Origin: an uncultured Granulosicoccaceae bacterium
GTDB taxonomy: Bacteria > Pseudomonadota > Gammaproteobacteria > Granulosicoccales > Granulosicoccaceae
Length of the DNA stretch: 35,305 nt
NCBI GenBank assembly: GCA_937923745.1
Contig: CALDUO010000063.1
Location: 1 to 35,305 of the forward strand
Reading direction: 5' to 3'
Below, one piece after another: positions 22,117 to 23,904 of this stretch. A program made the position numbers and the translations under genes. Below the pieces are notes generated by a model, which worked only from the letters and a program-made list of their open reading frames with translations, was not told where the DNA came from and searched no databases. Numbering within the stretch: the first letter of the stretch is position 1; each line of letters opens with the position of its first letter.

Positions 22117-22446
22117 GATTGGGAAAACGTGAGCTTTGGTGAAACGGCAGTGGTGCGCAGTCTGTGTTTTCGGTGTGCATTTACCCTGACTGGGCGTTGC
22201 TGACCTTACCGAAATGTTATTGTTTGTCGATGTAATAAAGATGACGAGACAGTCAAAATGTTAGCGCCTATGGCGTGATTAGCGTAAGCACGGTGCATTG
22301 ATTGATTAATTTCATCCTCGGATGGGTAACCAACACTTAACGAAGCGTCATAATACTGGCTTGAAAATGAAATAATCAAATCGGTGATTGAAAATAAACG
22401 TCATCGGTAAGAGAATTACGCCAGCGCGTTTCTGGAGAAGAATTGA
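22117..22446. other. intergenic region upstream of the Cys/Trp-repeat protein
   Basis: These 330 bases are AT-richer than their surroundings and contain no recognisable gene. CATAAT at 22349-22354 could be a -10 box, without a clear -35 box. The last part holds the ribosome site GGAG at 22433-22436. Confidence 0.5.
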
Positions 22447-23844
22447 ATGAGATATAACCCAATTGTACTGGCATCTGCATTTGCAATGGCGACACTGCCG
22501 GCATTGGTCAGTGCGCAACAGCTCGATAACACCGAAACTCTGCCCGATGCGAAAGCCGGTGAGTGTTATGCGAAGGTCATAACGCCTGCCCAATTCACAA
22601 CGCAGTCCGAAACCGTGGTGGTTCAGGAAGCGTCTGAGCGGGTGCAGATCATTCCGGCAAAATACGAGTCGGTGGAACAAACCATCGTCGTCAAAGAGGC
22701 GAGTCGTACCATCAAGGCAGTGGCTGCCGAGTATGAAGACCGCATCGAACGTATCGAAATCAGTCCGGCGTCCACCACCTGGATGTCTACGGGTCGTAAC
22801 GACGACGTGCCTGCAGGCCCGGCGATGCTTGATGCCCTGACGGGTTCGGGTATCAACCTTGCCACTGTCTCCCCGGGTAGCTGCTTTCGTGAGTATTACA
22901 CCCCGGCAGAATTCAAAACCGAAACCGAGCAGGTGCTGGTATCGGAGGCGAGCGACCGAATTATCGTGTCACCCGCTGAATTCGAAACTGTCTCGGAGCG
23001 CGTGGTAGTCAAAGAGGCAACCAGCCAGGTGATTGATGTGCCGGCGTCGTATCGCTCGGTAAGCCAACAGGTTTTGGTAGAGCCTGCCAAGCAAGTATGG
23101 AAGCAGGGTCGTGGCTTGGTTGAACGTATCGATAACACCACCGGCGAAATCATGTGTCTGGTTGAAATTCCGGCACGTTTTGAGACCATTACCAAAACCG
23201 TTCTCGACAAGCCGGCAACAACCCGTCAGGTTGATGTGCCTGCAGTCTACAAGACTGTGCAGGTGCAACGCTTGGTGAAGCCTGCTTCTGTCAGACGTGA
23301 GTCTATCCCGGCAGAATATCGGTCGGTGACCAAGCGGGTTAAAGTGGCTGAAGCCAATTTTTATTGGTTGGCTAAAGGCGAGTCGCCGGTTGAAGGCGCA
23401 AAGTACACCGGCAACGAAGCTTGCCTGTTACCAAAAGAAGCTGAGTTCCGTAACGTTAAGGCTCGTGTTTTGAAAACACCGGCAACAACACAGGTTGTTG
23501 ATGTTCCGGCCACCTACGAAACCGTTCGGGTTGATCGTCTGGTGTCTGCTGCTACCGAGCGCAGAATTCAAATTCCCGAGAAAACCCGCACCGTAGCCAA
23601 GCGCGTACAGACAGCACCTGCAAAGCTTGAGTGGCGTAAGGTCCTGTGTGAAACCAACATGACCCGCGACATCGTCGTTGATCTGCAACGTGCGCTGAAG
23701 AGAGAAGGGTTTGATCCCGGCCCTCTGGACGGTGTGCTCGGCATTGCGACCAATCGTGCACTGGAGTCCTATCAGACCCGTAAGAACCTTGACCGTGGTG
23801 GTCTGACTTACGAGACCCTCGAAGCACTCGACGTCGATACCTGA
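22447..23844 (+). CDS. exported repeat protein with C-terminal peptidoglycan-binding domain
   Basis: This 465-residue protein has a signal peptide (NPIVLASAFAMATLPALVSA, cleavage near residue 23). Four modules of 75-105 residues follow. Each opens with a cysteine (Cys40, Cys146, Cys237, Cys326) and closes with a tryptophan (in STTWMSTG, KQVWKQG, NFYWLAKG, KLEWRKV). Inside each module a strand-like unit of about 25 residues repeats roughly three times, of the form VPAxYxTVxxxVLVxPA. Cys401 then precedes a peptidoglycan-binding domain (VDLQRALKREGFDPGPLDGV). It should sit in the periplasm, tied to the cell wall. I do not recognise a named family for the repeats. GGAG lies about 11 bases before the ATG and a strong terminator follows, so it is monocistronic. 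Confidence 0.85.
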   Translation: MRYNPIVLASAFAMATLPALVSAQQLDNTETLPDAKAGECYAKVITPAQFTTQSETVVVQEASERVQIIPAKYESVEQTIVVKEASRTIKAVAAEYEDRIERIEISPASTTWMSTGRNDDVPAGPAMLDALTGSGINLATVSPGSCFREYYTPAEFKTETEQVLVSEASDRIIVSPAEFETVSERVVVKEATSQVIDVPASYRSVSQQVLVEPAKQVWKQGRGLVERIDNTTGEIMCLVEIPARFETITKTVLDKPATTRQVDVPAVYKTVQVQRLVKPASVRRESIPAEYRSVTKRVKVAEANFYWLAKGESPVEGAKYTGNEACLLPKEAEFRNVKARVLKTPATTQVVDVPATYETVRVDRLVSAATERRIQIPEKTRTVAKRVQTAPAKLEWRKVLCETNMTRDIVVDLQRALKREGFDPGPLDGVLGIATNRALESYQTRKNLDRGGLTYETLEALDVDT

Positions 23845-23873: not shown

Positions 23874-23904
23874 AAAAGCCCGGCATAGCCCGGGCTTTTT
23901 TTTG
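23874..23904 (+). terminator. Rho-independent terminator
   Basis: AAAGCCCGG (23875-23883) pairs with CCGGGCTTT (23890-23898) around a six-base loop, and the T run spans 23896-23903. It ends the Cys/Trp-repeat gene. The A run on the other side could also let it act for the convergent YdjM-type gene. Confidence 0.92.

Follow-up and report, generated by a model that had tools for sequence, protein, structure and literature searches.

The window, the whole 35,305-nucleotide stretch of DNA analyzed here from an uncultured Granulosicoccaceae bacterium, contains on its forward strand a gene for a repeat protein in which four Cys-to-Trp arms (M1 to M4) lie between a Sec-type signal peptide and a C-terminal peptidoglycan-binding domain (Table 1). 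Since a signal peptide is present, the protein is probably exported to the periplasm; the signal ends in VSA-QQ and, having no cysteine, does not contain a lipobox. An earlier note made from the sequence had named a peptidoglycan-binding domain at the C-terminus, and the family search bears this out: PG_binding_1 was found with E = 2.9e-7 and 31 bits against a curated cut-off of 23, and a match at E ≤ 0.01 was present in 56 of 56 aligned members. Membership of this family suggests that the domain docks on peptidoglycan. The repeat gene is convergent with a YdjM-family gene (PF04307; 23986-24714, minus strand), and a convergent YdjM gene often follows the repeat gene in Granulosicoccaceae, being kept in 22 loci including the window.

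Table 1 Features of the repeat protein gene in the window
Feature	Position	Strand	Basis or remarks
Open reading frame	22447-23844	+	465 aa, with a Sec-type signal peptide at the start
Shine-Dalgarno-like GGAGAAG, ATG 6 bases on	22434..22440	+	Direct sequence reading
Sec signal peptide, residues 1-23, MRYNPIVLASAFAMATLPALVSA, without lipobox	22447..22515	+	Sequence reading; putative cleavage site
Arm M1, type A, C40-W112, 3 x 23-aa units	22564..22782	+	Cys/Trp positions, arm comparison, unit profile
M1-M2 linker, 33 aa, short helix predicted	22783..22881	+	AlphaFold model, sequence
Arm M2, type A, C146-W218, 3 units	22882..23100	+	Cys/Trp positions, arm comparison, unit profile
M2-M3 loop, 18 aa, KQGRGLVERIDNTTGEIM	23101..23154	+	As long as the A-B loop usually is in two-arm relatives
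Arm M3, type B, C237-W307, 3 units	23155..23367	+	Cys/Trp positions, arm comparison, unit profile
M3-M4 linker, 18 aa	23368..23421	+	Sequence
Arm M4, type B, C326-W396, 3 units	23422..23634	+	Cys/Trp positions, arm comparison, unit profile
Cys401, five residues after W396	23647..23649	+	Kept in 120/120 four-arm sequences examined
PG_binding_1 (PF01471), residues 407-461	23665..23829	+	Family search; SleB and SltB3 domains matched in Foldseek
Inverted repeat AAAAGCCCGG...CCGGGCTTTT 3' of the gene	23874..23899	.	Terminator-like in minus strand scan; consensus match only

Repeat anatomy and comparison with known families

A residue census of the open reading frame found cysteines only at 40, 146, 237, 326 and 401 and tryptophans only at 112, 218, 307 and 396, verifying the four Cys-to-Trp modules followed by Cys401 that had been described earlier. 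The three inner units per module were likewise recovered by a 23-column unit profile, which gave 3+3+3+3 units at a spacing of exactly 23 residues, each run bounded by its Cys and Trp; a shuffled copy of the sequence, used as a control, gave one isolated match. The units share the consensus P-A-x-Y/F-x-T-V-x-x-x-V-L-V-x-(P/E)-A, after which come about seven residues, the last being V or I. Across 81 aligned proteins the five cysteines together with W218, W307 and W396 are invariant (100%), and W112 is present in 98%. Mean identity between proteins is 39% for M1/M2 and 40% for M3/M4, compared with 26-31% across types, and the arms are A-A-B-B in order and origin. In the four-arm family the A arms carry a negative and the B arms a positive net charge; this contrast is weak in two-arm proteins, where B is the more positive arm in 37 of 55.

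The module was earlier taken to be undescribed, and the searches agree. Over the repeats (residues 40-401) of the window protein and several relatives there was no match above the cut-off in Pfam, NCBIfam or PHROGs, the family libraries covered, a 141-row module profile gave zero matches to PDB chains at E ≤ 10, and no paper on the repeat family turned up in the literature library searched. Matches to HxsA, SleB and endolysins sit mainly on the C-terminal domain. Membership of HxsA (TIGR03979) was rejected at 34.1 bits, far under the cut-off of 121.65; the weak likeness lies mainly over the PG_binding_1 region (residues 371-463), and the His-Xaa-Ser repeat of HxsA is absent from the window protein. 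A Pfam hint of a Dna2 rift-barrel (E = 0.089) was put down to chance. Foldseek comparison of the full-length model, which has a low pTM, with the PDB returned nothing at E ≤ 0.001, the wall-binding domain alone matching with a probability near 1 and good superposition. This domain resembles the SleB N-terminal domain (6tci) and the PG_binding_1 domains of the lytic transglycosylases SltB2 and SltB3 (7qvd, 5ao8) at 31-37% identity and an rmsd of about 1.5 A; unlike these proteins, the window protein has no enzyme domain, and the rest of its chain is mostly unmatched repeat. With the same low-pTM query, two matches in a viral library at E ≤ 0.001 had TM-scores of 0.05-0.12 and were not taken as signs of homology; long-hairpin pores and tail fibres came up only with insignificant Foldseek E-values.

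Relatives and matched arm lengths

The genome of origin also encodes a paralogue with 37% identity and an identical Cys pattern, and a homologue was present in 52 of the 95 relatives searched. A GTDB genome scan gave 208 relatives; the 80 retained are all four-arm proteins and come from Granulosicoccaceae, Chromatiales, Thiotrichales, Ectothiorhodospiraceae, Campylobacterota (Sulfurimonas, Sulfurovum, Sulfurospirillum) and Desulfobulbaceae. Of 274 genomes of the class, 38 contained the module, as did 35 of 398 sampled from the phylum; phage records held no match, and plasmid records one partial match. Two-arm relatives of A-B order are common, with an A-B loop usually 18 residues long, like the M2-M3 loop. 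In 38 of 57 two-arm sequences with four units, a lipobox and then a heptad-like helical stretch precede the first arm, an N-terminal arrangement that fits an anchor in the outer membrane. In another family of the phylum, L272, L273, L274, L275 and L277 (frames of 146-187 aa) have just one arm, of about three units, with a CxxC pair at each end, and may form homodimers.

When the units of A and B were counted independently, two-arm proteins had A/B counts of 4/4 (59 proteins), 3/3 (10), 2/2 (3) and 10/6 (one, L113), and the arms of L137 and L138 were 6/6. Once redundancy was removed, equal arms were present in 23 of 24 two-arm proteins, L113 being the only clear exception to the equal-arm rule. 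The unit count was 3/3/3/3 in 117 of 118 four-arm proteins; the remaining one, L073 at 5/3/3/3, was a counting error in which the signal-peptide Cys had been mis-assigned. Unit number therefore shifts jointly in both arms, as expected for pairing along their whole length. L113 and L261 form an adjacent two-arm pair, and the 10/6 arms of L113 contain near-identical, recent repeats. L147 (G617:C1:869000-871500), a four-arm gene whose M2 is shortened to one unit, was discarded as a clue to arm pairing and treated as a decaying gene because of an internal TGA stop; the same contig holds a second copy of the match elsewhere.

One relative, L149 (G002:C220; a 5'-incomplete open reading frame of 1632 aa), carries at least 51 consecutive 23-aa units, followed by a terminal Trp, a Cys, a PG_binding_1 domain and, last, a tail rich in glycine; a second copy was not found among 48 genomes of its family. 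So long an array far exceeds any periplasm and would suit an exported surface fibre or adhesin instead of a periplasmic part. We nevertheless regard such a role as highly improbable, as the usual forms combine a Sec signal or lipobox with a wall-binding domain, which places them in the periplasm, secretion apparatus genes are absent nearby, and L149 is unique in its family and incomplete at its 5' end. An elongated beta structure in the periplasm, which the earlier note had proposed, is the best reading for the window protein, whose N-terminus resembles a Sec signal.

Antiparallel register of the arms

The full-length AlphaFold model (mean pLDDT 74) has a low pTM of 0.34 and displays strands of 7 and 12 residues across all four modules, with breaks at PA or EA. 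The strand segments of M2 and M3 are mirrored at a residue sum of 410 and those of M1 and M4 at 393 (mature numbering), 12 residues facing 12 and 7 facing 7, with end strands off by a few residues. Because the break pattern is palindromic, the model alone sets the register just modulo 23; both sums correspond to an index sum of 79, which lies within the peak found by coevolution.

Mean-field DCA was applied to 120 four-arm sequences and to a separate set of 57 two-arm sequences with four units, both of small depth (Neff 81 and 34, respectively). The strongest antiparallel signals in the four-arm set were M2-M3 at index sums 76-81 and M1-M4 at 77-80; averaged over registers 77-80, M2-M3 scored 3.88 (rank 3 of 164 windows) and M1-M4 4.12 (rank 1 of 164), against a background of about 0.1-0.2 with an SD of 0.9. 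The antiparallel peak of M1-M2 was lower (1.84, rank 2 of 164), and M1-M3 and M2-M4 were flat, with no DCA signal in this set. The independent two-arm set scored 4.34 at registers 100-103 (background SD 0.76, rank 1 of 256 windows), peaking at 102, which matches the four-arm register plus 23. Coevolution thus places the arms antiparallel at one register, with M2 opposite M3 and M1 opposite M4; the order in the sheet is probably M3-M2-M1-M4.

These data bear on an alternative in which each module folds by itself into a small beta domain of about seven strands, either a compact meander or a barrel, and the protein is a string of four beads with a wall-binding domain. Modules that are equal in length and internally repeated agree with such domains, as does the way in which strands of 7 and 12 residues alternate in the full-length model, separated by breaks of two residues. 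However, a single module folded alone with an alignment of 141 sequences showed no strand pairing (pTM 0.18), which argues against stand-alone domains; the arms coevolve in a single antiparallel register; the unit numbers of A and B covary, a matching that independent domains do not need; and the PA breaks are ill suited to two-residue hairpin turns. We therefore consider the bead arrangement improbable. On the better reading, the actual repeat is the 23-aa unit, each module supplies a single strand or arm for pairing with another, and the Cys-to-Trp module does not look like an independent domain. The structural part of the paired-arm reading has good computational support.

Cross-linking through the cysteines, raised earlier, is plausible. 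In a nested antiparallel topology C40, C237 and C401 would lie at the base and C146 and C326 at the tip. A Cys following the final Trp never occurs together with an additional Cys immediately ahead of the first arm (188 proteins have the first only and 6 the second only; one broken gene has neither), which suggests a clamp at the base by a C40-C401 disulfide. The six proteins without the terminal Cys are of alphaproteobacterial type and form one clade; being related, they possibly reflect a single event. C146 and C326 may form a second pair at the tip. Some four-arm subsets (L031, L042, L086, L091 and others) carry additional cysteines near the M2-M3 loop, seen as KENCG in Granulosicoccus and as two further Cys in some Campylobacterota.

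Proposed role in the cell envelope

The explanation that we favor for the whole, and hold to be rather probable, is a wall-docked four-strand antiparallel ribbon that acts in the envelope as a strut or spacer of constant length. The four modules would form four long, almost fully extended beta strands, interrupted at regular PA and EA/PA sites, whose antiparallel arrangement in exact register would yield a rigid ribbon or rod with a maximum length of about 24 nm (72 residues x 0.33 nm). Its base, where M1 begins and M4 ends, would also contain Cys40, Cys401 and the wall-binding domain and be held by the putative disulfide clamp, and the ribbon would be fixed to peptidoglycan at this one end. 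Judged from domain and topology, the protein most likely serves the cell envelope as a spacer or strut of fixed length. With its N-terminal helix anchored by a lipid, a two-arm relative would become a tether between outer membrane and peptidoglycan; as the window protein has no lipobox, we propose the strut or spacer role for it and keep the tether for its lipoprotein relatives.

The ribbon could instead be a binding scaffold whose conserved loops or face bring an enzyme or a partner, such as an HtrA-like protease of the periplasm, to the wall. The loops are indeed conserved (TGEIMC; PASP..SGVDL), and a trypsin-like protease adjoins the gene in two separate contexts, downstream as Trypsin_2 with PDZ (7 loci) and upstream as Trypsin_2 with Sel1 (5 loci); L071 and L056, and L068 and L072, are loci with such a neighbor, in unrelated contexts. 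A protease neighbor is missing, however, from most loci and from the window, gaps of 20-500 bp are no proof of operons, and a scaffold does not require exact matching of arm lengths or a fixed number of three units; we therefore judge this role unlikely. No operon partner common across lineages was found among the loci compared.

The favored spacer or strut has counterparts among known envelope proteins. Pal, OmpA and Lpp link the outer membrane and the wall (PMC11369160). The repeat family shares with Lpp, Pal, OmpA and PapS (PMC11369160) wall binding at one end and, where two-arm relatives are concerned, lipid anchoring of the opposite end, and the helical heptads of these relatives recall Lpp. 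It differs in having no OmpA-like domain and no noticeable Lpp wall-attachment sequence, in a spacer built of beta repeats with paired arms and, for the window protein, in the missing lipobox. The repeat and its paired-arm design appear to be new; a role of this kind, as an envelope connector or spacer, is known. More tentatively, we suggest as a possibility short of an even chance that the family represents a new fibrous beta architecture, in which arms, each one long strand with kinks, are zipped antiparallel in register to form a wall-anchored ruler in Proteobacteria and Campylobacterota, with unit number setting rod length; two-arm relatives would form antiparallel dimers, and the four-arm protein would correspond to one such dimer fused in a single chain.

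If the proposed architecture is correct, a widespread family of envelope proteins has been overlooked by the domain libraries searched, and the module alignments suffice for defining it as a new family. The length of a periplasmic strut would then be set in a modular way, by an equal number of 23-residue units per arm, which would offer a clean system for the design of rigid beta rods and a genetic handle on the spacing between wall and membrane in the bacteria that carry it.
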